Virus record (IMG/VR): IMGVR_UViG_3300030116_002299
Coordinates: 17,550 to 44,807 of that record
Strand: one strand, 5' to 3'
Origin: a virus
Length of the DNA stretch: 27,258 nt
Shown here: positions 324-26,750 of the stretch, piece by piece
Numbering within the stretch: position 1 is the first letter of the stretch
Layout: each line of letters opens with the position of its first letter
Program-made: the position numbers and the translations under genes
The notes under the pieces: model-generated
The model's database searches: none
What the model was told of the DNA's origin: nothing
The model's input: only the letters and a program-made list of their open reading frames with translations

Positions 324-1425
324 CTATCTCTGAGTGTACTAGTACGCCATTTGCATAAAAGTTATTATTCTTTGTTAAAATTGTATATGTCCAATGTTTC
401 TTTGGAAATCCTTCTAATCTATGAACTTGTGCATAATATTTACCATCTAATATTTTTAGCAAATCATTAGGCTGTATAGCAGCTGCATCTAAATCATAGT
501 TTGCTGATGTTCTACTTGGATCATCAGATACCATACTACCATCTTCTTTATATACAGGGTGGTCTTGTGTAAGTATCAACTCTTTTAATTCTTCACCATC
601 TGTTTCATCGTTCGGGTCTGATAGCATAATCTTATATAAGTTATCATGTAATCTTTTTTCTATTTGTAATATTTCTACTTCTTCTTCTTCTCCAGTTTCC
701 CAGTTGTAAGACATAATCATATCTCCAACATTTAAATCATGTATGTTTGCAGTTCCTTCTTTTAAATTAACTGGTATGTTTTCATAAATACATAAACCAA
801 ATCCGCCACCACCACCAGAAAATGTAATATTACCTGTAATAGTTGCACTAACACTATTATTTGTAAGTGTTAATGTGTATGCACCTGTACCATCTTTATT
901 AGAAGGTGAGTGAGCCCATCTAGTTCTAATATATCTTGTTCCTGAATTATGTCCAGTGTATAAACTATTACTATTAGATGATGACACACTTATAAAATTT
1001 GTACCACTATTACTTGTACCCATAAAACCAGGGTCTCCACTAGAAGATGTAGCCATTGTAAATGTACCAAACGGTCCACCAGTTGTTGATAAAGAAAGAC
1101 TTGTACCGCCACTACCATTAGATACTGTCATCTGTGCATCTTTAGTACTTGTACCAGTACCTCCTGGTAAATCGGTAAGATTTAATCCAGTATTGTCTGT
1201 AGTGCTCCAAGATGTACCAGCTAAGTCATGGTCATAACTATAGAACTCACTCATAGCATGAGGTGCACTACCATCTGGTCTGTCTGCACTAGCATTTTGT
1301 GTGTTAATAGTAGCTACAGTTCCATCAGATAAATCTTCTAATGAACTGTTAGCAGTAGTTCCACTTCTACCAAACTCAACATTAATATCGTTCATACTAA
1401 TTTGTCCTGATGAAGTAAGAGCCAT
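316..1425 (-). CDS. Tail-associated protein with C-terminal Hint (hedgehog/intein) domain
   Basis: 369 residues in two parts. Residues 1 to about 207 are Ser/Thr/Gly/Asn-rich, low in charge and likely beta-structured, as in phage fibre or adhesin proteins; they end in a glycine run (GGGGGFG, 205-210). From C212 the sequence changes to an acidic Hint-type module: C212 begins block A, LNVGDMIMSYN (231-241) follows, TQDHP at 286-290 matches the block-B TxxH motif, and FYANGVLVHS (356-365) matches the C-terminal block. The usual terminal His-Asn is His364-Ser365, so Asn cyclisation is not expected and a hedgehog-like N-terminal cleavage or thioester chemistry is more likely. It overlaps the long fibre gene by one base. 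The Hint call is strong; self-processing is inference. Confidence 0.8.
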   Translation of the reverse strand: MALTSSGQISMNDINVEFGRSGTTANSSLEDLSDGTVATINTQNASADRPDGSAPHAMSEFYSYDHDLAGTSWSTTDNTGLNLTDLPGGTGTSTKDAQMTVSNGSGGTSLSLSTTGGPFGTFTMATSSSGDPGFMGTSNSGTNFISVSSSNSNSLYTGHNSGTRYIRTRWAHSPSNKDGTGAYTLTLTNNSVSATITGNITFSGGGGGFGLCIYENIPVNLKEGTANIHDLNVGDMIMSYNWETGEEEEVEILQIEKRLHDNLYKIMLSDPNDETDGEELKELILTQDHPVYKEDGSMVSDDPSRTSANYDLDAAAIQPNDLLKILDGKYYAQVHRLEGFPKKHWTYTILTKNNNFYANGVLVHSEIGE

Positions 1426-4118
1426 TATTTTTTTAACTCCTCTATCTCTGCTTTTAATTCTTTAATAGACTCAATTAATAATGGAACAAGTTTTTCATAC
1501 TTAACTGCTTTATATCCATTATCTCTTGTAGTTACTATTTCTGGTAATACTTCTTCTACTTCTTGTGCTATAACACCTACATCATGTCCTTTAAAGGTTT
1601 CTTGTTTATCGTTCCAATCAAATTCATAACCAGATAGCTTAGAAAGTTTGTCTAAAGAATTTTCAATAGGTTTTAAATTATCTTTTAATCTTTTATCTGA
1701 TGAAGCATAAGCAACAACATCTTCTCCAGCATTAAGAGTTTTAGCAACACCTAGACCACCACTTATCTTTACTGCTCCAGTAGTTTTAGATGTAGAGTTT
1801 GTTGTATTACTAAAAGTTATAACTCCACTTGCAGTGTCTGTAGCATTGCTTCTTAAATACTTTGAGTCTGTATGTTGTGTAATACTTGATGCAGCTATTC
1901 TAGCATCTGCAATAGTACCACTAACTATTTTACTTGCAGGAATGTCATCTACTAACGCCAGATCTCCTAATCCTAAAGCTGAAGCAGTAGTATATCCATA
2001 ACTTAAAATTTTATCTTCTACCGCTGCAGAAGTCATAATGTGAGCATCATTGTTAGTAAACTCTCCTGAGTCATCTACACCTGTAATAGTATTACCGTCA
2101 AGAGTAAACCCACCAGTTAATGTTGATGTGCCACCAACCTTTAATGCTCCACCAGCATAAATACCCTCTTCGTGTGCAAATCCGTAAGTGTCTAAATCTT
2201 CTAATGAATTTCCGTGTACAGAATAACCAGTTTTAGTATTTTCTATTACAGGAGTATGTACTGAATGGTCACCATAATGAGCATCGTCTCCCATACGAAA
2301 TATCTTTACATCATAAGAAGAATTTGCTTCAACATAAACTTGTAATAATTTTGTTCCATAAGTATTATCACTATCTTGGCTTAATACTCTTACCCCAGTA
2401 ATTCTATTTTGGTGTCCACCACAATTTATAACAGTAAAGTTGCTATCCATAAAACTTCTTAACCAATGTATTCTAATAAATCCGTGGTCTCCAGAATCTG
2501 CGTCTGTAACTAATATTTCTCCAGCTTTTCTACCACTTGAATTAGAAGCTACTGTCATCCAACCTGGACCTACTGTAGCAGAATCACTTCCTTGTCTTCT
2601 AAAAAATCTTGTCGAATCATAATTATCTAATGTAGTAGCATTAATGCCTAAAGCATCTATATCAGATTTAGTTTGGTCTGCAGTAGCTCCACTTTCTATT
2701 CCATCTAATTTACTATGGTCAGAACTTGTAAAAGCAACTGATGTTGTGCCATTTATTGTTAAAGCGTCAGTTTCTAATGTTCCATCTACATCTACATTTC
2801 CAGATATGTCAAGAGTAGCTGCTGTCACTGTACCAGATGTAGTAAATCCAGCAGCAGTTATTGTTCCACTTGTAGTATCATTACCATTATTTTTTAAGAA
2901 AGCATCATCAACATTTAAAGTATCCCCACTCAAAGTAATATTTGTTCCTGCACTCAAATTAGTTTTAGATGAAATATCAATCGTTGGTATTCTTGCAGCG
3001 TCAAATGTACCAGATGTAATTTTACTAGCTGCTAAGTTAGGTATTCTGGCAGTTCCAAATGTTCCAGAAGTTATTTTACTTGCTGCTAAATTAGCAATTC
3101 TTGCTGCAGCTACTGTACCACTTGTAATTAAATCTCCACTATGATTAGGAACAGAAGTTAAAAATGCAGATGCGTGACTACCATCTAATGTATCAGCATC
3201 TAATCCATTTCCACTACCCTCATCTGAAGTAGTTAAAAGTCTTTGCCAATCTTGCCAGTCATCTGTTGTATCTCTTAATGTTCTAAAATATAAATTCGGA
3301 GTACCAGAATACCATTGAGCTCCTATTTGTGCAGAGCCACCAGTTCCTTGTCCAAAAGCTAATACTGAATAATATCCAGAAGCTGTACCAGTTCCCAATG
3401 TTCCATTATTTCTGTTAAATGTATATATACCAGTTTCGTGTACACTTCTACCAGTTTCAGCTGTTGTATCTCCAATATCAAAAGAGTTGTGTGCTATTCT
3501 TGCTGCATCAAATGTACCACTAGTAATCTTAGAAGTTGCTAAATTTGGTATTCTAGCAGTTGCTAATGTACCAGATACAACTTTACTTGCAGGAATATCA
3601 TCTACTAATGCTAAGTCACCTAAACTTGCAGTAGTTGCTAATCCACTAATTCTAGTAGTTACATGGTCATATATTTGGTCGCCAGTTGCTAAAGTTGCAG
3701 CACCATTAGCTACTGCAGCAGTGTCTAAAACAGCACCAGTGCCTAATCCTAAATTACTTCTAGCACCACTAGCACTAGATGAACCAGTACCACCATTAGC
3801 TACTGCTAAGTCAGTGCCACTCCAATTAGAATTATTTATTGTAGATAATGTTGATAAAGAACCTAGTCCTAAATTACTTCTAGCACCACTTGCATCACTT
3901 GCTCCAGTACCTCCATTCGCAACTGCCAAATCAGTACCAGACCAATTAGAGTTGTTAACAGAAGATAGTCCACCTCCACCTAATTGACGATATGTACCAC
4001 CATCATTAATATATAGCTCTGTTGTACCAGTTCTATATCCTAACTCATAATGTTCTAATACATCATTAGTTGAAGAGGGTACACCCGACCCTCTTTTTAT
4101 TTTTATTACATTACCCAT
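1425..4118 (-). CDS. Long tail fibre / tailspike with C-terminal S74 intramolecular chaperone
   Basis: 897 residues. The N-terminal part starts MGNVIKIKRG, similar to the start of the neighbouring 311-residue protein, and is followed by low-charge repeats: a 32-residue unit with NWSGTDLAVANGGTG occurs twice, and a KITSGTFDAARI-type unit recurs several times. The middle is Gly/Ser/Thr-rich and beta-like. The last 91 residues form a peptidase S74 (intramolecular chaperone) domain: SDKRLKDNL with S807 and K812 as the likely Ser-Lys dyad, then VGVIAQEVEEVLPE, VKYEKLVPLLIESIKEL and a coiled-coil end. In known phages this domain trimerises the fibre and then cleaves itself off. The protein probably binds the host surface. 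It abuts the 311-residue gene with no gap. Confidence 0.88.
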   Translation of the reverse strand: MGNVIKIKRGSGVPSSTNDVLEHYELGYRTGTTELYINDGGTYRQLGGGGLSSVNNSNWSGTDLAVANGGTGASDASGARSNLGLGSLSTLSTINNSNWSGTDLAVANGGTGSSSASGARSNLGLGTGAVLDTAAVANGAATLATGDQIYDHVTTRISGLATTASLGDLALVDDIPASKVVSGTLATARIPNLATSKITSGTFDAARIAHNSFDIGDTTAETGRSVHETGIYTFNRNNGTLGTGTASGYYSVLAFGQGTGGSAQIGAQWYSGTPNLYFRTLRDTTDDWQDWQRLLTTSDEGSGNGLDADTLDGSHASAFLTSVPNHSGDLITSGTVAAARIANLAASKITSGTFGTARIPNLAASKITSGTFDAARIPTIDISSKTNLSAGTNITLSGDTLNVDDAFLKNNGNDTTSGTITAAGFTTSGTVTAATLDISGNVDVDGTLETDALTINGTTSVAFTSSDHSKLDGIESGATADQTKSDIDALGINATTLDNYDSTRFFRRQGSDSATVGPGWMTVASNSSGRKAGEILVTDADSGDHGFIRIHWLRSFMDSNFTVINCGGHQNRITGVRVLSQDSDNTYGTKLLQVYVEANSSYDVKIFRMGDDAHYGDHSVHTPVIENTKTGYSVHGNSLEDLDTYGFAHEEGIYAGGALKVGGTSTLTGGFTLDGNTITGVDDSGEFTNNDAHIMTSAAVEDKILSYGYTTASALGLGDLALVDDIPASKIVSGTIADARIAASSITQHTDSKYLRSNATDTASGVITFSNTTNSTSKTTGAVKISGGLGVAKTLNAGEDVVAYASSDKRLKDNLKPIENSLDKLSKLSGYEFDWNDKQETFKGHDVGVIAQEVEEVLPEIVTTRDNGYKAVKYEKLVPLLIESIKELKAEIEELKK
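3741..3956 (-). repeat. Tandem 40-codon repeat inside the long fibre gene
   Basis: Residues 55-86 and 95-126 of the fibre are almost identical 32-residue units: both read NNSNWSGTDLAVANGGTG and end ASGARSNLGLG, differing only around ASD versus SSS. They start 40 codons apart. Copies of this kind are typical of recombining fibre shafts and could expand or contract by slippage. Confidence 0.85.
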
Positions 4119-16072: not shown

Positions 16073-16387
16073 ATGGATAATGAAAATAGAACAGTTAAAT
16101 GTGTTGGATATACTATTGCGTCTGATAGTTATACAACCCACGAAGTAAAGAAAACATCTGATTTACCAAACAACTTGGTATCGGGACAATTTGTAGAGTT
16201 TGATTATAAATTGACAGATGATGAAAGACAAGCACAATCAACCCGACTATGTGCTAATGGTTATGAAATATCTGAAAGTAATTCGGCAGATAGTGATACT
16301 ACTTGGCCGAAACACTTTTCTGATAGTGTGAAGTATGCTATCCAGAAAGTTAAAGCGTCTAAATCTTGTAAAGGATTAGGTGCTTAG
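16073..16387 (+). CDS. First rightward gene, unknown (104 aa)
   Basis: 104 residues, hydrophilic, starting MDNENRTVKCVGYTIASDSY, with FVEFDYKLTDDERQAQSTRL in the middle and a helical basic end (SVKYAIQKVKASKSCKGLG). The start follows ATGAAAGG, the ribosome binding pattern used throughout the rightward genes. Being first after the control region and followed by a terminator, it probably makes an early single-gene transcript. No family is recognised. Confidence 0.7.
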   Translation: MDNENRTVKCVGYTIASDSYTTHEVKKTSDLPNNLVSGQFVEFDYKLTDDERQAQSTRLCANGYEISESNSADSDTTWPKHFSDSVKYAIQKVKASKSCKGLGA

Positions 16388-16401
16388 TCAGTTAGTTAGT
16401 G

Positions 16402-16442
16402 AGTAGATAGATAATTAAGTTTGTCTATCTACTTGCTTTTTT
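16402..16442 (+). terminator. Rho-independent terminator
   Basis: AGTAGATAGA (16402-16411) pairs perfectly with TCTATCTACT (16424-16433) across a 12-base loop, and TTTTTT follows at 16437-16442. It lies 14 bases after the stop of the first rightward gene. The stem is AT-rich, so some read-through to the next genes is likely. Confidence 0.75.
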
Positions 16443-17496: not shown

Positions 17497-17560
17497 TGTG
17501 TGGTGAAAGAGATTGATATTCTTTCCTGAACAGCCCATTCAGTTCTTGAGTAACCACACA
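17497..17560 (+). ncRNA. Compact three-way-junction RNA element (64 nt)
   Basis: TGTGTGGT (17497-17504) pairs with ACCACACA (17553-17560). Immediately inside, with no linker, come GAAAGA/TCTTTC (17505-17510/17520-17525) and then CTGAA/TTCAG (17526-17530/17538-17542), followed by a 10-base unpaired strand. It lies 26 bases before the next ATG, so it may be a leader element, the third part of the RNA array, or a processing signal. Confidence 0.6.
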
Positions 17561-17993: not shown

Positions 17994-18156
17994 TACATAT
18001 ATAATGAATGATAAGGATAGACAAAAAGCACTAGAAGAGTTCTATGATAGATTTGGAGCATGGTACTTTTTCAATTTTAAAAAGTATGGTGGATACAAAA
18101 AGTCTTGGATAGAACGATATGATAGAGAAATAATGAATCACAGAAAGAGGGTGTAA
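17962..18156 (+). CDS. Unknown small protein (64 aa)
   Basis: 64 residues beginning MKTEVIQPHPDTYIMNDKDR and rich in Tyr, Phe and Arg (FYDRFGAWYFFNFKKYGGYK). I chose the ATG at 17962 because GAAAGGAAAG lies just upstream; an in-frame ATG at 17920 has no such site. It overlaps the preceding gene by 32 bases and the next ATG by one base. The function is unknown. Confidence 0.6.
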   Translation: MKTEVIQPHPDTYIMNDKDRQKALEEFYDRFGAWYFFNFKKYGGYKKSWIERYDREIMNHRKRV

Positions 18157-18569
18157 TGGCAAAAGGAAATAATCGTGAGATTAAAATTAGGTTCGAAAAA
18201 GAAATGCGATTTGCTGGTGAACAGTTAGAAGCAGTAAATGATATTACTTGGAACGAACGAGATGAAGTAGTAAAAGAAGTAATGAAATTAGTATCAGAGA
18301 GATTGGATGCTGGTGCTATTAAGTACAATGAACAAGTTCCAATTACTTTACAAGAGTGTCTTGAATCTAAAAGAGATAATCTTGTAGAGTCAATAGAAGA
18401 AGACGTAGATAGTCTTGTTTACTCAATACCTGAAGTTATTTTACAGACTCAGTTATCAGATAGTATAACATACAACTTGCTACGTAAAGCTAATGTGTAT
18501 AAGTTCTATGCATTGTATTATTCAATGTTAGCACTTAAACACGATACGAAAAGGAAAGAAAATGAGTAA
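18156..18569 (+). CDS. Unknown helical protein, weakly MazG-like pattern (137 aa)
   Basis: 137 residues, mostly helical: MRFAGEQLEAVNDITWNERD, LVSERLDAGAIKYNEQVPIT, and NLVESIEEDVDSLVYSIPEV. The last element, preceded by an AGAxKYxEQVP segment, recalls all-alpha nucleotide pyrophosphohydrolase-like (MazG-type) phage proteins, where a VESIEE..D helix binds metal; the similarity is weak. It overlaps the ubiquitin-like gene start by 8 bases, so the two are coupled. It may be unrelated to the conjugation cassette. Confidence 0.55.
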   Translation: MAKGNNREIKIRFEKEMRFAGEQLEAVNDITWNERDEVVKEVMKLVSERLDAGAIKYNEQVPITLQECLESKRDNLVESIEEDVDSLVYSIPEVILQTQLSDSITYNLLRKANVYKFYALYYSMLALKHDTKRKENE

Positions 18570-18861
18570 CTCAAGTCGCCTATTCACTGGCGTTAAATAC
18601 AAAGTAGATCAACAAGATTGGACAACCGATATGAATGTTCCAGAAAATGTAACAACTGTAGATCAGTTTATTCAATACCTGAATACAGTAGACACTGGTG
18701 CATACAATAGTATTGGTAGAGACAGTACAATCAATGTTAATGTACAGCAAGGTAACAGAGCTACAGAGCTAAGTGCTATTAGGCCAGACGCTCCAGGTAG
18801 TGATGTAGATGGCCACTTATGTTTCATTACATTTAATAGAAACAGTAAAAGAGGTGGATAA
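18562..18861 (+). CDS. Ubiquitin-like modifier (Ubl) with C-terminal Gly-Gly
   Basis: 99 residues ending FITFNRNSKRGG followed directly by TAA, so the chain ends in Arg97-Gly98-Gly99 with no extension. That is the mature form needed for adenylation by an E1 enzyme. The rest fits a beta-grasp-sized protein: strands around TGVKYKVDQQDW, a helix VTTVDQFIQYLNTV (about 30-43), strands INVNVQQGN and HLCFITFN. The fold is inferred from size, layout and context rather than identity. The next three genes encode E2-like, JAB and E1-like proteins, which makes this the obvious modifier. GAAAAGGAAAG precedes the start, which overlaps the upstream gene by 8 bases. Confidence 0.8.
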   Translation: MSNSSRLFTGVKYKVDQQDWTTDMNVPENVTTVDQFIQYLNTVDTGAYNSIGRDSTINVNVQQGNRATELSAIRPDAPGSDVDGHLCFITFNRNSKRGG

Positions 18862-18873
18862 CTAATACAATAT

Positions 18874-18898
18874 GGGGGGTGACAATATGTTGCCCCTC
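18874..18898 (+). promoter_or_regulatory. Strong hairpin between Ubl and E2 genes
   Basis: GGGGGGTGACA (18874-18884) pairs with TGTTGCCCCTC (18888-18898) through 11 pairs, three of them G-U, around a 3-base loop. It lies between the Ubl stop and the ribosome binding site AATGAAAGGAAAGG of the E2-like gene. With no T-run it is not a simple terminator. It could lower downstream expression or define an mRNA end, so that the modifier is made in excess. Confidence 0.7.
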
Positions 18899-18919
18899 AA
18901 TGAAAGGAAAGGAAATAAT

Positions 18920-20755
18920 ATGTGGATTAAAGAAGATATTGAACAACTTAATATCGATATTGATTTACTATCTCAAGAACTAATACTTGGTCCAAGTAAT
19001 ATGGTAAACAAAAAGATTGCAGCACTGAACAGAAGGTGGATTACAAACACTTATGTTAGTGGCAATAGGTCTTACCTAGAACCACTTGAACCATTACGAT
19101 TCACTAAGAAGTATCGTTGGTCACCTGGCTACAAAGACATAGTTAAACAAGTAACAGTAGAAAGACTATTGCAACTTGAAAAGCCTGGTACATTGTCAAC
19201 GATGAGAAGTAGAATGAATAATCAAGAATGGAATATGAAATACTTTTGGGAAGATCTGATGGCTATTGAAGACCTGATGAAAGAACTCAGAAGTAGAAAA
19301 GCAAGTACAGATGATGATATGACATCAGCAAAGAACAACTTGAATAATGTGATTACAACACTACTAAAGAAAGTTGAAGACGCAAAAGTTCTATTCGATT
19401 CATATCCAAATATGGAATATCTATTTAGATTTATTTACAAAGATCCAGATAGATACGATCCAGAAACACAAGATAGAATGCAGTTTGATGAAAGTCAAAT
19501 GTCAGCATTGAAACTCTTGACTGGTCAGATTGAGTTGTCTTTTAAGTTTGAAAATCCTACAATGGAAGTTCATACAACAGATAATACATTTGCAAAAGAC
19601 TATGAAGGAAGTAAATCGTATGGTACAATACAGTTCAAGAAACCTGTATACCTGAACTTTAGATTACCTTTGTTTGAATTGTTTCAAGCATTGTATACAT
19701 CTGACTTAGAATCTGTAACTGAAAGTGAGATATATGGTAGATTGTCACACGATAGTTTGATGACTAAAAGAAACTTTCTATCAATATATGGGTTCGGTGA
19801 TTTATTGAATAACAGATATTCATTTAATAACAATTCAGTTAGAGGTTGGTTTGATGATGGAAATATAAGACATCCATACATTAATCATCGTGATAATCGT
19901 GAACAAGATTCAGTTGATTGTTTTGATGTATGGCAAGTTCCAGATACAAGTGTTTGTTTAGGTAACATGCAAAACGATATGTTGAATGCATTTGTTCAAA
20001 TGGATTTTATCCAGTTACTTACACTGATACAACAATGGAATAAGTATTGTATGTACAATACAAACCCACTAAACAATATATCATATTCATTTGATAGATT
20101 TATTAGTGCAGATGATTTCAGTGAAGATATGTTTACAGATCATGTGAACTTTCAATTTGATACATTGCATCGTCAATCTATGATAGATATTGGTTTCAAT
20201 CCTAATGAACTTGATATCAAAACAACATATCAAGATAGTAGTTGGGACAGAGGTGGTGCATTCTGTTACACTAATGCATTTGGTTATGATCAGATTGGTC
20301 GTGAAGATGGAGTACATTTTGGTATTGATATGACAAGTAGAGATTATCGTGCACATATAAACTCTGTTAGATATTATCTTGATAGATATGATAATCCAGA
20401 TGGTGAATATATATATGATGATATAATCACAGCAGAAGATGTAGCAACATACGAATCAATTAAGATTGCATTGATGCAAGAGTGGATTGATTGTCTTGAA
20501 AGTAATAACTGTATTACAAGTAAGTATGGTAAAGCATATGAAGTAAAACAGATTCTAGATAAAATCAATAATGTAGAAATGGAATCAGAAACAATAGAAC
20601 CAGTGGAAGAAGATGATGATGATGGTTGGGAACCAGTTGTCAATCCACATGCAGACTTACCATTTGGTAGCGATGAAACTATCGTAGCAAGTGAGTTTGG
20701 AACTGCAGAAGAAATACAATCAGCAATGGAACAACAAATGATGGAGGATATGTAG
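18920..20755 (+). CDS. Large E2-like ubiquitin-conjugating protein
   Basis: 611 residues from the ATG at 18920, which follows AAAGGAAAGGAAAT; an in-frame ATG at 18872 lies in the hairpin and lacks such a site. Residues 318-348 carry an E2/UBC-type signature: HPYI (318-321), then DTSVCLGN with C346 (codon 19955-19957) as the likely thioester cysteine, then a long helix FVQMDFIQLLTLIQQW, as in HPN...G.ICLG active sites. Strands before it (IELSFKFENPTMEVH, YGTIQFKKPVYLNFRLP) fit the E2 sheet. The N-terminal 190 and C-terminal 230 residues are not from a recognised family; the C-terminus has an acidic run (PVEEDDDDGWEP). Typical E2s are about 150-200 residues, so the large flanks may hold ligase or target-binding functions. 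It carries the Ubl from E1 to substrate. Confidence 0.78.
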   Translation: MWIKEDIEQLNIDIDLLSQELILGPSNMVNKKIAALNRRWITNTYVSGNRSYLEPLEPLRFTKKYRWSPGYKDIVKQVTVERLLQLEKPGTLSTMRSRMNNQEWNMKYFWEDLMAIEDLMKELRSRKASTDDDMTSAKNNLNNVITTLLKKVEDAKVLFDSYPNMEYLFRFIYKDPDRYDPETQDRMQFDESQMSALKLLTGQIELSFKFENPTMEVHTTDNTFAKDYEGSKSYGTIQFKKPVYLNFRLPLFELFQALYTSDLESVTESEIYGRLSHDSLMTKRNFLSIYGFGDLLNNRYSFNNNSVRGWFDDGNIRHPYINHRDNREQDSVDCFDVWQVPDTSVCLGNMQNDMLNAFVQMDFIQLLTLIQQWNKYCMYNTNPLNNISYSFDRFISADDFSEDMFTDHVNFQFDTLHRQSMIDIGFNPNELDIKTTYQDSSWDRGGAFCYTNAFGYDQIGREDGVHFGIDMTSRDYRAHINSVRYYLDRYDNPDGEYIYDDIITAEDVATYESIKIALMQEWIDCLESNNCITSKYGKAYEVKQILDKINNVEMESETIEPVEEDDDDGWEPVVNPHADLPFGSDETIVASEFGTAEEIQSAMEQQMMEDM

Positions 20756-20756
20756 T

Positions 20757-21620
20757 ATGAGTAAGTTCGTAATGTCTAATGAAGATTGGACAACACTAAT
20801 GCAGTATGCCAAATATGCATACGATGAACATAAATCAGAGATAGGTGGATACATGGTTGTTAAATATGTAGACAAACAGTTTGTATTTTCTGAGCCAGTT
20901 ATACTTCAACAAGAAATAACAGCTAGCAATACAGACATCACAACAGAAGCACTAGGTAAATACTTTACTGAAACAGAAATCAAATATGGTGGTGAACCGT
21001 ATTGGTTGTGCTGGTGGCATAGTCACCATACAATGGATGTATTTTGGTCGGGAACAGATAAGACAGCAATAGAACAATCTGTTAATGACAACTATGCATT
21101 TTCATTGGTAATCAATCTGAAACAAGAACAGATACTTAGAATCAGTGATTGGAAAACTGGTACACAAACAGATACAAAAGTTAAAATACTTGGTAAAGAA
21201 TTTGAAATACCACAAAGTATTAAAGATGAAGTAGAAAGTTTGTGCACTAAACCTACACTTGTAAGAACTAATACTGGTTGGTATGGTCAACATTATTCTA
21301 AAAAGATAAGTAAAGAACAATTAACAATGTGGCAAGATGAACTAGATGATGAAAGAGTAAATCTTGAAGCAGACATTGATAACATATTGCAAGACTATCT
21401 GATAGATAATGACTACCCAACTGCAAGAAAACGATTTGGAACTTTGAATCGTAAACTTGGACAAAGTAAAAGTGAACTAAGAGTAATCAAACTTGAACAA
21501 GATGAGTTGGATACAGTAATAAATTATGCATTAGCAGAACAATATATCTATGCTAAAGGCACAGAGCCTGACAAAGCAGAGATGATTGCTGATGCATCAT
21601 TTGAAAGGAGTTTTAAATGA
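20757..21620 (+). CDS. JAB/JAMM-family metalloprotease (deubiquitinase-like)
   Basis: 287 residues. The N-terminal 130 residues form a JAB1/MPN+ domain with the full zinc motif: E28 in SEIGGYMV, then WWHSHHTMDVFWSGTD giving H88, H90, S98 and D101 (HxH-x7-S-x2-D). Such enzymes hydrolyse the isopeptide or peptide bond after the Gly-Gly of ubiquitin-like proteins. The C-terminal 150 residues are helical and charged (QDELDDERVNLEADIDNILQ, FGTLNRKLGQSKSELRVIKL), possibly a coiled-coil docking segment. It starts one base after the E2 stop and overlaps the E1 gene by 4 bases. Because the Ubl is encoded already mature, removal of conjugates is a likelier role than precursor processing. Confidence 0.9.
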   Translation: MSKFVMSNEDWTTLMQYAKYAYDEHKSEIGGYMVVKYVDKQFVFSEPVILQQEITASNTDITTEALGKYFTETEIKYGGEPYWLCWWHSHHTMDVFWSGTDKTAIEQSVNDNYAFSLVINLKQEQILRISDWKTGTQTDTKVKILGKEFEIPQSIKDEVESLCTKPTLVRTNTGWYGQHYSKKISKEQLTMWQDELDDERVNLEADIDNILQDYLIDNDYPTARKRFGTLNRKLGQSKSELRVIKLEQDELDTVINYALAEQYIYAKGTEPDKAEMIADASFERSFK

Positions 21621-22267
21621 ACGAGAGATATGCAGGCTTAGTAAATAACTTTGATAATTATGCATATCATTTCCTAGGTTGCGGTGCTATTGGTAGTGCC
21701 GCAGCTGTAACTATGGTTAAGATGGGTGCTAAATGTATTCACTTGTATGATATGGATAAAGTAGAAAGACCCAATGTTGGTGTGTCAGTATACGATACAA
21801 ACGATATCAATAAAGATAAAGTATCAGCATTGAAAGATAGATTGCTTCTAATAGATCCATATCTAGAAGTACATACACATCATGGTATGTTTGAACAATA
21901 CAAACCAGAAGATAACAATGTAGTTATACTAGGTTTTGATTCAATGGAATCTAGACTATATGCAGTAGAACAAATATTGAAACATAAGAAACCAGATGTT
22001 TTGATTGATGGTCGAATGGGTGCTGAGCATTATCAACAGTACACATTTAAAAATCCAACACTATCACAATACAAGAAGACTTGGTATTCAGATAGTGAAG
22101 GTGATGACGAACCTTGCAATGCAAAAGCAACTAGTTATTGTAGTAGTATGACTGGTAGTTTTATATGCAACAATGTCAAAAAGATATTGAAGGACGAGCC
22201 ATATTTGAATAATTTTTCTTTTAATTTTCAAACAATGGCACTAAATTCAAATGGTTTCGTAAGTTAA
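21617..22267 (+). CDS. E1-like (ThiF/MoeB superfamily) Ubl-activating enzyme
   Basis: 216 residues, a Rossmann adenylation domain. GCGAIGS (21-27) binds ATP; LYDMDKVERPNVG (43-55) has the Asp pair D45/D47 and N53; NKDKV supplies K66/K68; VVILGFDSMESR (102-113) has D108 and R113. C167 in DDEPCNAKATSYCSS is the best candidate for the Ubl thioester cysteine. In the usual SNLNRQ motif the Arg-Gln is replaced by Val56-Ser57, so the canonical arginine finger appears missing or moved. The length matches minimal ThiF-type E1s without extra domains. It has a strong AAAGGAG site and is coupled to the JAB gene. It should adenylate the Ubl Gly99 and pass it to C346 of the E2. Confidence 0.88.
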   Translation: MNERYAGLVNNFDNYAYHFLGCGAIGSAAAVTMVKMGAKCIHLYDMDKVERPNVGVSVYDTNDINKDKVSALKDRLLLIDPYLEVHTHHGMFEQYKPEDNNVVILGFDSMESRLYAVEQILKHKKPDVLIDGRMGAEHYQQYTFKNPTLSQYKKTWYSDSEGDDEPCNAKATSYCSSMTGSFICNNVKKILKDEPYLNNFSFNFQTMALNSNGFVS

Positions 22268-22815: not shown

Positions 22816-22844
22816 AATAATAAGAAACGAAAGGCAATTTGAAT

Positions 22845-23429
22845 ATGAAGTTCAAAGGTAAAGAATATACTGAAGTCAAAGATCGTATCGATGCATTCTT
22901 ATCTGAATATCCTGAAGCTACAATAGAAACAACATTAGTTTCAGTAAACAATATAACAGATACACCAACAGGTGAAAGATGTAATGAATACTTAATCTCT
23001 GCTAAAGTATACCCTTCAAAAGAGAACAATCCAGATCAATACTATACAGGTCATGCAGCTGAACGTGACAATACTGGATTTGTTAACAAAACATCAGCAC
23101 TAGAAAATTGTGAAACATCAGCAGTCGGTAGAGCATTAGCCTTTGCTGGGTATGGTGGTGGATACGCAATAGCTTCAAAAGAAGAAGTGGATAATGCAAA
23201 AGCTGCACAAAAGAAATCTCATGTAACAGTAAAAATGTTAGAAGAGTTAGATGCTAGTTTTAAAAGAGCAGTACCATTCTTAGAAGAAGCAATGATAAAG
23301 AGGTATAAAGAACAGCGTACAGCTGGACACTTTGATACTAAGTTAAGAGTCAATGCTACAATGCAATACTTTAGTCAAATGATTAAGGAGGGCAAGGATG
23401 TCGGAAAAGACAAAAAGAATGCCAAGTGA
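22845..23429 (+). CDS. Putative ssDNA annealing / recombination protein
   Basis: 194 residues from the ATG at 22845; a TTG at 22839 is closer to GAAAGG and would add two residues. The central segment GFVNKTSALENCETSAVGRA with ALAFAGYGGGYAIASKEEV is a signature of phage ERF-like/single-strand annealing proteins as I know them. A helical C-terminal part (MLEELDASFKRAVPFLEEAM, QYFSQMIKEGKDVGKDKKN) follows. It lies upstream of the ssDNA-binding-type protein and the primase-helicase, which suits recombination-dependent replication. The family call is by motif; the biochemical role is inferred. Confidence 0.6.
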   Translation: MKFKGKEYTEVKDRIDAFLSEYPEATIETTLVSVNNITDTPTGERCNEYLISAKVYPSKENNPDQYYTGHAAERDNTGFVNKTSALENCETSAVGRALAFAGYGGGYAIASKEEVDNAKAAQKKSHVTVKMLEELDASFKRAVPFLEEAMIKRYKEQRTAGHFDTKLRVNATMQYFSQMIKEGKDVGKDKKNAK

Positions 23430-23655
23430 GCATAGAATATCTGGCTTAGAACCAGGTGAAATACAAACTATATCAAACGATTTCGGTGAGTTTATATTAC
23501 TAAGACTACCATTTAAAGATGGTGAATATGGATATAAATTTATTGATAACAATAAAGTCATTGATGCAGTTACTAATCATTGTGATAATCATAATGATAT
23601 GATGAACGATGCAATCAATGAAAAGACAAATGAATACATGGAGGATAGTAAATAA
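23398..23655 (+). CDS. Unknown small replication-region protein (85 aa)
   Basis: 85 residues: a basic start (MSEKTKRMPSEHRISGLEPG), a strand-rich middle (FGEFILLRLPFKDGEYGYKF) and an acidic, Asn/His/Met-rich helix (NHCDNHNDMMNDAINEKTNE). It overlaps the annealing-protein gene by 32 bases and shares one base with the next start. It is probably an accessory of the neighbouring DNA-binding proteins; no family is recognised. Confidence 0.65.
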   Translation: MSEKTKRMPSEHRISGLEPGEIQTISNDFGEFILLRLPFKDGEYGYKFIDNNKVIDAVTNHCDNHNDMMNDAINEKTNEYMEDSK

Positions 23656-24179
23656 TGGCTATTACAGGTACTAAACATAGTAATGCTAGTAAAACATTAA
23701 GAAATTATTTTGTTAATGATACTACTATTACAGAAGTTGAAGTTATGGATTCACAATACACAGATCTAAGTTTGAAATTATTATTGACAGATGATAATAA
23801 TGGATACACTTATACTTGTTTTGTAAATCAAAAGTTCGAGAAAGACAACAATGGTGTTGTAACAGGATTAGCATATCCTGATGATTTAAACACATTGTAT
23901 GTTGCAGCTAAGTGTGACTTAAATGTTAGTGATGCTGGTATCTTAGATACTAAATCACTTGAGTCATTGCAAGATAAGAAAGTATCTTGTATTACTTACA
24001 AGTCTACAGGTAAATACAAACGTCAAACTTGGGGTGTTGTATCAAGTCCTGCAGATAAAGAACAACTTGAATCTAGGTTCAATCAACAACTGAAAAAAGG
24101 TTATCCTAAAGATTATGATAAGGGTGAAAACTTAACACCAGATGATGTTAAAGAAGCTCTTGATGGGATGCCATTTTAA
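23655..24179 (+). CDS. Putative ssDNA-binding protein
   Basis: 174 residues. The N-terminal 110 residues look strand-rich (TEVEVMDSQYTDLSLKLLLT, YTYTCFVNQKFEKDN), as in an OB-fold, and KKVSCITYKSTGKYKRQTWG is basic and aromatic, suitable for DNA binding. The C-terminus is acidic and ends DDVKEALDGMPF, close in character to the DDDIPF-type tip by which SSB proteins recruit partners. Context between annealing protein and primase-helicase agrees. The SSB call is inferred from composition and tip, not from a recognised family. Confidence 0.5.
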   Translation: MAITGTKHSNASKTLRNYFVNDTTITEVEVMDSQYTDLSLKLLLTDDNNGYTYTCFVNQKFEKDNNGVVTGLAYPDDLNTLYVAAKCDLNVSDAGILDTKSLESLQDKKVSCITYKSTGKYKRQTWGVVSSPADKEQLESRFNQQLKKGYPKDYDKGENLTPDDVKEALDGMPF

Positions 24180-24433
24180 TGTCTGCACAAGATATCATAA
24201 TTGCATGGATTAAAAGTATAAAATCTAAAAATCCAGTGTTTTATAGTTATGATTTAGAAGGTGCATTACCTACATATGGAAACCTAGTACATCAAAAGAT
24301 GCACACTGGAAGTACTTATGCTAGGGCATTTAGAAAGATTCGTGAAGAAAATACTTTAAGTAGACACGGATTAAAGTTAGAAGAAGTTGAACATAGCAAT
24401 AGTAAGGTAAAAGGATGGAAGATAACAGACTAA
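24179..24433 (+). CDS. Small protein, possibly winged-helix (84 aa)
   Basis: 84 residues, helix-rich and basic: MSAQDIIIAWIKSIKSKNPV, then VHQKMHTGSTYARAFRKIRE and a strand-like end (LKLEEVEHSNSKVKGWKITD). The order helix, helix (S/T-rich turn), helix, beta-hairpin would fit a winged helix-turn-helix DNA-binding protein. It overlaps the primase-helicase gene by 19 bases, so it may be an accessory or loader, but this is not shown. Confidence 0.6.
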   Translation: MSAQDIIIAWIKSIKSKNPVFYSYDLEGALPTYGNLVHQKMHTGSTYARAFRKIREENTLSRHGLKLEEVEHSNSKVKGWKITD

Positions 24434-26208
24434 TAGAAGTTGTAAAAGGTAGCATTAGAAATAGAAATAATGTTATGTCTTACAAAGACTATTTAGAAGT
24501 AGAAAAACAAAACTACTTTGGTACTGAAATGTATAGATCATATTATCTTTTTGATAACACTTTACAAAATCATGTTGCTTTGTCTAAGTCAGTAAGAAAG
24601 TTTGATGGCTTAGCATATTTAGATAGAATATTAATAGATATAGATAAAGGAGATATCGATGGAAATGATTTACAAGATTATATTAGACATTGTTGTAATG
24701 AGCTTTTCGATTATGGTATTAATTCTGAGCATGTTAATATTTGGTTTAGCGGCAGTGGCTATCATATTGAGCTACTTAATGTTTTTGGGTTTCAACCTAA
24801 TAAAAACCTACATACAAAAGTTAAATCTACATTAACAGAGCACTTCAGTTTTGGTGACAACATATACGATAAAATGAGAATCATTAGATCAAATTGGTCA
24901 TTAAACAAGAAGACTAGTCTATATAAGGTATGGATACCTTTAGATGATATTTGGACAATAAGTTACGATGAAGTTTGCAGTATAGCAAAATCCAAAGCAG
25001 CTTATACTAAATATAGCAAAACAAAAACAAACTTTTATGCTACATTTAATGCTTCAGATATATATATAGAACCTTATTTACAAAGTTCTATAGTATCAAA
25101 AGTAAGTGCAAGTTCAAATGTAATACCAATGAATACAGGTAAAACTAATTCAGTTGTTACTTGTGTTCAACACATCTTTAATGAAGGGCCTTCACAAGGT
25201 TCAAGAAATATGAAGATGATGCGTATGATAAGTTCATATAAAAGAGCAGGTATTCCATTTATAGTTGCATACAACGGTATGATACAATGGGCACAAGGTG
25301 AGTTAGAATTAGATGAAATAAATAGAACAGTACAAAACATATATGATAATCAATATATATATGGCTGTGATGATTCTATTCTAATGGAGTATTGTGATCC
25401 AAAATGTATACACTTTAAACGTAAAGACTATGTATTAGATATACGTGATGTTAGTTCATTAGAAGATACATTCAAAGAATATATTACTAATGACTTAACA
25501 ACAAGAAGTGTAAACATGCAAGATATATTTGATGGTGCACCAGACTATGCATTTAGACCAGGTGAACTTATTATATTTAGTGGTGATACAGGTATGGGTA
25601 AGACAGCTTTTGTACAGAACATAGTTGCAAAAGCAAAGAAAGATACTTTGTTTTTATCATTAGAAATGAATGAGATATTAACTTGGAGAAGATTTGGTCA
25701 GATTGCTAAAAAGAAAAACAGTGATTGGATTATAGAACAATATAAAAACAATCCAGACTTTTCTTTACAAGATGAACTAAGTCATCTAAAGATAATGGTG
25801 ATAGCACCTGAGATTGAGGCTGTAAAGAAAGTAGTAGCACAATATGAACCTAATATATTAGTAGTAGATACTACTGATGAAATGCAAGTAGATAGGTTTG
25901 ATGGTGATATACAAAAACAAAATGTTATTATAGATGCATTGAAACAGATTGCACAACGTAATAATACTTTGATCTTTGCTATACATCACCTGAACAAAGC
26001 TAGTGCTTCACAAGGTACAGTTGGGCTACACTCTCTTAAAGGTTCATCAAATGTAGTACAGAAAGCTGATAAAGTTATTGTTTTAAAGGGTAATCGTAAC
26101 GAAATTTATAGAACTGTTATGTCTGAGAAATCTAGAGATGACGGTAAATTAGAATTTGTTACAGAGTTTAATCCTGAAACAATGACATTTAAAAAAGTAA
26201 ACATATAA
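24415..26208 (+). CDS. Bifunctional primase-helicase (AEP-type primase + DnaB-like helicase)
   Basis: 597 residues. The N-terminal part resembles an archaeo-eukaryotic primase: LIDIDKGD with D75/D77, IWFSGSGYHIEL with H117, and MRIIRSNWSLNKKTSLYKV as the following basic segment. A linker has C318, C327 and C331 (YGCDD, EYCDPKCIHF), possibly a metal site. The C-terminal RecA-fold helicase has GDTGMGKT (390-397, Walker A), LSLEMNE, ILVVD (481-485, Walker B), FAIHHLNKAS and GSSNVVQKADKVIVL. It would unwind the fork and make primers. It is the central replication gene; no DNA polymerase is seen in this window. Confidence 0.85.
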   Translation: MEDNRLIEVVKGSIRNRNNVMSYKDYLEVEKQNYFGTEMYRSYYLFDNTLQNHVALSKSVRKFDGLAYLDRILIDIDKGDIDGNDLQDYIRHCCNELFDYGINSEHVNIWFSGSGYHIELLNVFGFQPNKNLHTKVKSTLTEHFSFGDNIYDKMRIIRSNWSLNKKTSLYKVWIPLDDIWTISYDEVCSIAKSKAAYTKYSKTKTNFYATFNASDIYIEPYLQSSIVSKVSASSNVIPMNTGKTNSVVTCVQHIFNEGPSQGSRNMKMMRMISSYKRAGIPFIVAYNGMIQWAQGELELDEINRTVQNIYDNQYIYGCDDSILMEYCDPKCIHFKRKDYVLDIRDVSSLEDTFKEYITNDLTTRSVNMQDIFDGAPDYAFRPGELIIFSGDTGMGKTAFVQNIVAKAKKDTLFLSLEMNEILTWRRFGQIAKKKNSDWIIEQYKNNPDFSLQDELSHLKIMVIAPEIEAVKKVVAQYEPNILVVDTTDEMQVDRFDGDIQKQNVIIDALKQIAQRNNTLIFAIHHLNKASASQGTVGLHSLKGSSNVVQKADKVIVLKGNRNEIYRTVMSEKSRDDGKLEFVTEFNPETMTFKKVNI

Positions 26209-26218
26209 AGGAAAGATA

Positions 26219-26425
26219 ATGATAAAATACAAACATACAAATAATAATGACGTAAATATGAGAAAGTTAACACTGTTTAGTTTATTTGATTTATGTTATT
26301 ATGTTGACTCTAATATTGGTAAACACTATGGTATATCAATAGGAGTTGGTACTAAACAATTACATTTATTATTACGTAATTGGGATACCAGTATAACAAT
26401 GAGATCGCCTAAGTATGACGCATAA
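26219..26425 (+). CDS. Unknown small protein (68 aa)
   Basis: 68 residues: MIKYKHTNNNDVNMRKLTLF, then SLFDLCYYVDSNIGKHYGIS and LHLLLRNWDTSITMRSPKYD. It has a clear GGAAAG site and overlaps the nuclease gene by 11 bases. Tyr, Asn and Leu dominate. No family is recognised. Confidence 0.6.
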   Translation: MIKYKHTNNNDVNMRKLTLFSLFDLCYYVDSNIGKHYGISIGVGTKQLHLLLRNWDTSITMRSPKYDA

Positions 26426-26750
26426 AAATAAAGTTCGTGGCAACAATCTTGAAAGAGAAGTTGTTAATGCAGCTAAAGAAGTGGGGCTCTCTGCAAAGAG
26501 GGCCTATGCTTCTGACGGCAGATCATTAGGTAAATCAGAAGTCGTTGATGTAATAGTAGAAGACTATTGCGTGCAAGCAAAACGAAGAAAAAGAATAGCT
26601 GAATGGTTATATCCAGATAATCATGGTGAAGACGTAGATGTAGTAGTAACTAGAATGGATAGAAAAGAACCTTTAGCTGTAATACCATTGAAAGAATGGT
26701 TAAGACTAATAAAGATAGAAAGGGAAAATAATGATGATAGAGATGAATAA
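26415..26750 (+). CDS. Holliday-junction-resolvase-like nuclease (PD-(D/E)XK)
   Basis: 111 residues. The Hjc-type layout is clear: RGNNLEREVVNAAKEVGL with E13, KRAYASDGRSLG, then VVDVIVEDYCVQAKRRKR with D45 and Q54-x-K56. These are the E...D...(E/Q)xK elements of the PD-(D/E)XK fold; the usual Glu before the Lys is Gln here, a change also seen in active members. It would cut branched recombination intermediates, fitting the annealing protein and packaging of concatemers. It overlaps both neighbouring genes. Confidence 0.75.
   Translation: MTHKNKVRGNNLEREVVNAAKEVGLSAKRAYASDGRSLGKSEVVDVIVEDYCVQAKRRKRIAEWLYPDNHGEDVDVVVTRMDRKEPLAVIPLKEWLRLIKIERENNDDRDE

Follow-up and report, generated by a model that had tools for sequence, protein, structure and literature searches.

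The 27,258-nucleotide window analyzed here (positions 17,550 to 44,807 of viral record IMGVR_UViG_3300030116_002299) carries a cassette of four plus-strand genes. These encode a 99 aa ubiquitin-like modifier (Ubl, 18562-18861), a putative E2-like conjugating enzyme of 610 aa (18923-20755), a 287 aa JAB/JAMM metalloprotease (20757-21620) and a 216 aa E1-like adenylating enzyme of the ThiF/MoeB/UBA5 type (21617-22267). A 137 aa ORF on the same strand (18156-18569), conserved in 17 loci, overlaps the Ubl start by 8 bases, possibly reflecting translational coupling; the ORF itself gives a weak match to the PADLOC model SduA (DUF4263, E 8e-4). The cassette adjoins a plus-strand replication/recombination module (22839-26750) annotated with PHROGs, which includes a DnaB-like primase-helicase (24415-26208), a RusA-like resolvase (26415-26750) and a 196 aa protein matching uncharacterised phage families. 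No Rfam family or tRNA was found in the window.

The Ubl gene ends in AAC AGT AAA AGA GGT GGA TAA, read as N-S-K-R-G-G-stop, with codons K96-R97-G98-G99 at 18847-18858 and the TAA at 18859-18861; positions 18820-18861 thus comprise codons 87-99 and the stop. The first-pass annotation had claimed that the frame closes right after Gly99 and that no protease is needed before activation, and both statements hold for the window Ubl. The AF2 model is a β-grasp fold (pLDDT 85.8, pTM 0.76) whose closest solved structure is MoaD (Z 8.2, rmsd 2.5 over 71 residues), with further matches to SAMP1 (Z 7.1), CysO and Urm1 (Z 6.4) aligned up to residue 96-98. By itself, the window Ubl had no match in Pfam, PHROGs, NCBIfam or PADLOC, so that a family-wide scan was needed to see the Pfam ThiS family, which is matched by 17 of 44 Ubl family members (best 1.9e-5). 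The first PDB match of the Ubl profile is E. coli MoaD (E 0.0037). The protein is thus modelled as a single MoaD/ThiS/Urm1-like β-grasp domain, by sequence and predicted fold nearer to these proteins than to ubiquitin. The earlier comparison of its ending with mature ubiquitin is a loose one: most ubiquitin in cells arises from a fusion precursor, while Urm1, ATG12 and FAT10 are translated mature (PMC11354881), as is the window Ubl.

Using Ubl and E1 as protein queries against viral contigs, which are metagenomic, we retrieved about 150 loci, or 97 after duplicate E1s were dropped; the Ubl and E2 alignments had diverged too far to serve for a contig scan. A recognisable Ubl is encoded in 63 of the 97 loci. 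GG is found in every one of these 63 distinct relatives and a Lys at -4 in 61, in a set of which part was initially picked by a K-x-GG pattern and the wider portion by profile and gene position. The homologue alignment proposed earlier as a check gave the predicted picture: GG is invariant while the remainder of the protein diverges to about 15-58% identity to the window Ubl. Of the columns in the 44-sequence Ubl alignment, G98 and G99 alone are invariant, and K96 is conserved in at least 90%. Among other ORFs of the same loci, a set that includes spurious ORFs, just 11 of 1893 end in GG. The ending is therefore unlikely to have arisen by chance, as had been proposed, and a chance stop at GG was rejected.

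Wherever all four genes are present (62 loci), they keep the order Ubl-E2-JAB-E1, the only flagged exception (L022) being an over-long JAB start call. Where at least 5.2 kb of sequence is available upstream of the E1 (n = 52), E2 and JAB are always present and Ubl is found in 51 loci. Some lineages have small ORFs between Ubl and E2, and no constant fifth gene lies between Ubl and E1 across related loci. Downstream of the cassette, ERF and AAA_24 genes occupy the corresponding position in relatives, and the helicase family is found in 72 of the 97 loci. Searched by tblastn against annotated phages, the window Ubl and JAB matched no phage record. The bacterial genome search returned generic short E1 matches in Bradyrhizobium only, so no chromosomal home was found.

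The E1-like protein matches ThiF (PF00899, 5.8e-19) and, as a profile, UBA6, UBA5, ThiF and MoeB in the PDB. It is a single adenylation domain of 214-244 aa across the family, with the GxGxxG nucleotide motif and the acidic and Lys ATP residues of ThiF/MoeB/E1 enzymes. Invariant residues in the alignment are GCGAIGS, D45, D47, K68, D108, C167 and C175, and the motif PCN-x-K/R-AT-x-YC is found by strict pattern in 61 of 63 loci. C167 also occurs in the E1s of the crAss-like phages discussed below and would be a more likely catalytic Cys than C175.

Of the four cassette proteins, the 610 aa protein between Ubl and JAB varies most (median 18% identity). Its ATG lies at 18923, while an alternative longer frame begins at 18872. 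In the window, the motif HPYI (19871-19882) is followed by V-C345-L-G, W372 and P382-L-N384, corresponding to a family signature HP[YF][IV]...VC[LFY]G...W...PLN. The predicted catalytic Cys345 (codon 19955-19957) forms an invariant column, and its placement after HP[YF][IV] is that of E2 enzymes. The asparagine of the HPN motif is replaced by Tyr or Phe in this family and the upstream HP His is found in 38 of 67 members. In the VIA structural comparison, which covered mostly residues 20-375 of a model searched whole (the core alone may match better), Ubc7 (Z 4.5) and Ubc12 (Z 4.4) come first, both weak, followed by RWD and UEV folds. Foldseek with the 610 aa model returned no match under E 0.001, Pfam E2 families gave no match and the E2 profile found coiled-coil noise only among PDB sequences. 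The motifs and the fold matches are each weak alone; combined with the constant place between Ubl and JAB, they lead us to assign the protein as an E2 with fair though incomplete confidence.

Given the weak structural match, the presence of RWD/UEV folds among the matches and the variability of the protein, it might instead be an adaptor, a substrate or an RWD-like scaffold, with tagging driven by the E1 and independent of any E2, in the style of Urm1 and SAMPs. We consider this improbable, as an invariant Cys345 (49/49) placed after HP[YF][IV], with W and PLN behind it, forms an active-site pattern of the E2 type that is unexpected in RWD/UEV folds. A second Cys of the putative E2, Cys530 (codon 20510-20512), is like Cys345 invariant in 49 of 49 proteins. 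In most distant members it lies within a small Cys cluster of the type YC-x4-C-x2-R-x2-C, of which the window's clade keeps Cys530 only, so that a plain zinc site is no explanation.

A 12-bp RNA hairpin is predicted at 18873-18899 on the plus strand, in the gap that separates the Ubl stop from the E2 start (-17.8 kcal/mol, z -3.8); the longer E2 frame would include it. Like hairpins are found 3' of the Ubl gene in five related loci (L002, 6301-6345; L004, 3268-3320; L006, 1603-1650; L011, 3185-3232; L012, 3294-3345). Within the window's clade, the hairpins have 10-12 bp and z-scores of -3.6 to -6.0, lack a T-run and lie ahead of the E2 ribosome-binding site. Covariation is weak, with one compensatory pair. 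The hairpin may shield the Ubl message or demarcate it, leading to Ubl in excess.

We interpret the cassette as a phage-encoded ubiquitin-like conjugation cascade, and the K-R-G-G ending as the C-terminus of its modifier, translated ready for activation; we give this reading as a whole a probability of about 0.72. In the proposed mechanism, the ThiF-type E1 would adenylate the free C-terminal Gly99 and then hold the Ubl as a thioester on Cys167 or Cys175. The E2-like protein would receive the Ubl on Cys345 and pass it on to an amine of a target protein, and the JAB metalloprotease would cut after GG, removing the tag. The cassette adjoins replication and recombination genes, so its time of action is probably that of genome replication or host takeover, not of virion assembly.

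The same Ubl and E1 could also belong to a sulfur carrier system, for which QbsE/QbsD and CysO/Mec provide precedents. Here, a ThiS/MoaD/CysO-like Ubl would receive a thiocarboxylate on Gly99 from the E1, and the JAB would hydrolyse an adduct or expose the GG. The nearest Ubl folds and profiles (MoaD, ThiS and CysO) and the minimal ThiF-type E1 are compatible with such a function, and the combination of a GG-ending β-grasp protein, E1 and JAB occurs in sulfur carrier systems too. However, an E2-like protein of the 610 aa type with an invariant Cys345 is present in all 52 long loci, the recognised neighbours are replication and recombination genes, and no sulfur gene was found among the conserved neighbour families scanned. 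We thus regard a sulfur carrier role as unlikely and retain the conjugation cascade as the preferred reading.

Stopping exactly at GG is not the rule in this family. Homologues lacking the GG or carrying long extensions, named in the first-pass annotation as the observation that would count against it, were looked for, and while none of the 63 Ubls lacks GG, only 25 stop exactly there. The other 38 run 1-60 residues further (median 3), with tails of at most 10 residues in 34 of them and no residue conserved after GG. Four Ubls have tails of 21-60 residues, in which another small domain may be fused to the Ubl (L048, 674-1111; L055, 1075-1512; L120, 2591-2905; L079, 2575-2952). In an E1+JAB tree (62 rows, quick method, long branches), the window clusters with the GG-terminal loci L002 and L004; its next sisters L006, L008 and L009 end in GGCLN, GGNLN and either GGCLN or GGNLN, respectively, and L011 ends in GGQ. 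Supported branches of this tree force at least 7 changes between the GG-terminal and tailed states, and the DNA after GG indicates that one stop codon gained or lost would suffice for a change of state.

We take the requirement for a free GG to be constant, whereas the presence of a stop codon directly behind it drifts. The exact stop may alternatively be an adaptation, with tail-less lineages having dropped regulated maturation so that their Ubl is constitutively ready; this would be compatible with a conjugation cascade and competes only with drift. Besides the at least 7 state changes, the uniformity of some large clades and the fact that there are fewer changes than in each of 500 shuffles could be taken as signs of selection, although any inherited trait is expected to cluster on a tree. 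The tails are moreover short and unconserved and the switch needs only a single stop codon; neutral drift fits equally well, since an always-present JAB would tolerate it. Adaptation is therefore possible but doubtful. Repeated switching between the two states within one conserved cassette makes it possible to ask if the JAB serves maturation, de-conjugation or both.

The JAB protein matches Prok-JAB (9e-5) and, as a profile against the PDB, an archaeal Rpn11-like protease (7.3e-6). Its metal site of the form E...HxH-x10-D with S-x2-D is complete (E28, H88-S-H90, S98-x2-D101) and invariant in the alignment, and the active-site residues are intact in all 25 GG-terminal and all 38 tailed lineages. 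A role as tail-tip peptidase was rejected because the cassette is not located in the structural module. The first-pass annotation had argued that the JAB takes off conjugates and does not process a precursor. An intact motif in lineages where there is nothing to trim supports the de-conjugating role, but the exclusive wording does not survive, as the tailed relatives, among them the window's sisters, need a protease to expose the GG. Most simply, the same JAB would trim the precursor in these phages, or a host protease would do so. A dual-purpose JAB, acting in both de-conjugation and precursor trimming, is thus more likely, and both roles have already been proposed for the JAB of such operons by Iyer and colleagues (PMC1779556).

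The components and logic of the cassette are already known from the type 6d operon and from Bil systems; the window family differs from both in some of the features tested and is phage-borne. BilABCD comprises the same four roles, named in the same order (Ubl, E2, JAB, E1), and BilC is reported to trim BilA (PMC11354881), with the window JAB likewise expected to act at the C-terminal glycine. In contrast to the two-domain, ISG15-like Ubl of Bil systems (PMC11354881), the window Ubl consists of one β-grasp domain of 99 aa. The Bil E2 carries a CEHH motif (PMC11354881), whereas no E/H/H pattern follows C345 in the window protein (CLGNMQNDMLNAF). BilD combines an inactive and an active adenylation domain with a Cys domain (PMC11354881), compared with the single 216 aa adenylation domain of the window E1. 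Further, the window cassette is phage-encoded and its Ubl needs no trimming.

The type 6d operons of Iyer, Burroughs and Aravind resemble the window in combining a standalone Ubl with a C-terminal Gly, an E2-like protein, a JAB and an E1 (PMC1779556), a correspondence in gene content that depends on the E2 call. However, type 6d JABs are preceded by an α+β JAB-N domain, for which the window protein has no space, its JAB match beginning at residue 19. Type 6d operons also contain a constant α-helical partner gene, for which the window family shows no clear counterpart, the upstream 137 aa ORF being limited to its 17 loci. Finally, type 6d E2s have no upstream His and use a downstream one, in contrast to the upstream HP seen in part of the window family.

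Clusters in crAss-like and Flavobacterium phages (e.g., cr106_1 and FpV4; L086, L087 and L088) consist of a β-grasp-like ORF (by eye), an ORF in the E2 position, a JAB and an E1. They adjoin primase, UDG and resolvase genes and are annotated mostly as hypothetical. Their E1s are 27-30% identical to the window E1 and share C167, while C175 is found in one of three. Unlike the window Ubl, their Ubl-like ORFs end in KSG-KF or run into another domain. A text search of the crAss-like phage paper for cassette terms found no mention, and a literature search, with most subscription journals outside its scope, returned no description of a phage-encoded Ubl-E2-JAB-E1 cassette. Urm1/Uba4, SAMP/UbaA and MoaD/MoeB share with the window a β-grasp protein with C-terminal GG, a minimal homologous E1 and the nearest folds. 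Urm1/Uba4 and MoaD/MoeB systems are not known to use an E2. The same applies to SAMPs (PMC11354881), whereas the window family always has an adjoining E2-like protein and JAB.

Anti-phage defence is the function of the best studied E1-E2-JAB cascades of prokaryotes. The cassette could be a counter-defence that mimics or sabotages Bil- or CBASS-type conjugation in the host, through a decoy Ubl, a thioester trap or a JAB stripping host tags. Such host defences exist, as described in PMC10097602 and, for Bil, in PMC11354881, and phages would benefit from blocking them. However, a self-contained set of four genes, E1 and E2 included, exceeds what a decoy needs, and the PADLOC models match the generic E1 and JAB only, making sabotage of a host system rather unlikely. 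Starting instead from the preferred conjugation cascade, we tentatively propose, at somewhat less than even odds, that a lineage of marine tailed phages possesses its own complete Ubl conjugation and de-conjugation cascade, which acts on phage or host proteins during replication and switches freely between precursor and ready-made modifiers. If this is true, the switching would provide a natural experiment on the reasons for producing modifiers as precursors in the first place. A full phage-borne cascade tied to replication genes would mean that bacterial viruses themselves use reversible protein tagging.

Terminase, portal and major head genes are located on the minus strand of the 44.8-kb viral record and identify the virus as a tailed phage; the marine assignment of the group rests on a mostly marine-looking contig collection. 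Additional features were noted elsewhere in the window. A sequence resembling an intrinsic terminator, with 17 pairs and a T-run, lies at 16398-16437, just 3' of an ORF at 16073-16387, and falls within the initial portion of the rightward gene block. On the minus strand, the C-terminal part of a tail-region protein (316-1425) is by eye similar to Hint domains of the intein/hedgehog type (CIYENIPV...DHPVY...NNFYANGVLVHS). The adjacent minus-strand ORF (1425-4118) has a C-terminus resembling, again by eye, the peptidase S74-like intramolecular chaperone of tail fibres (SDKRLKDNLKPI...).
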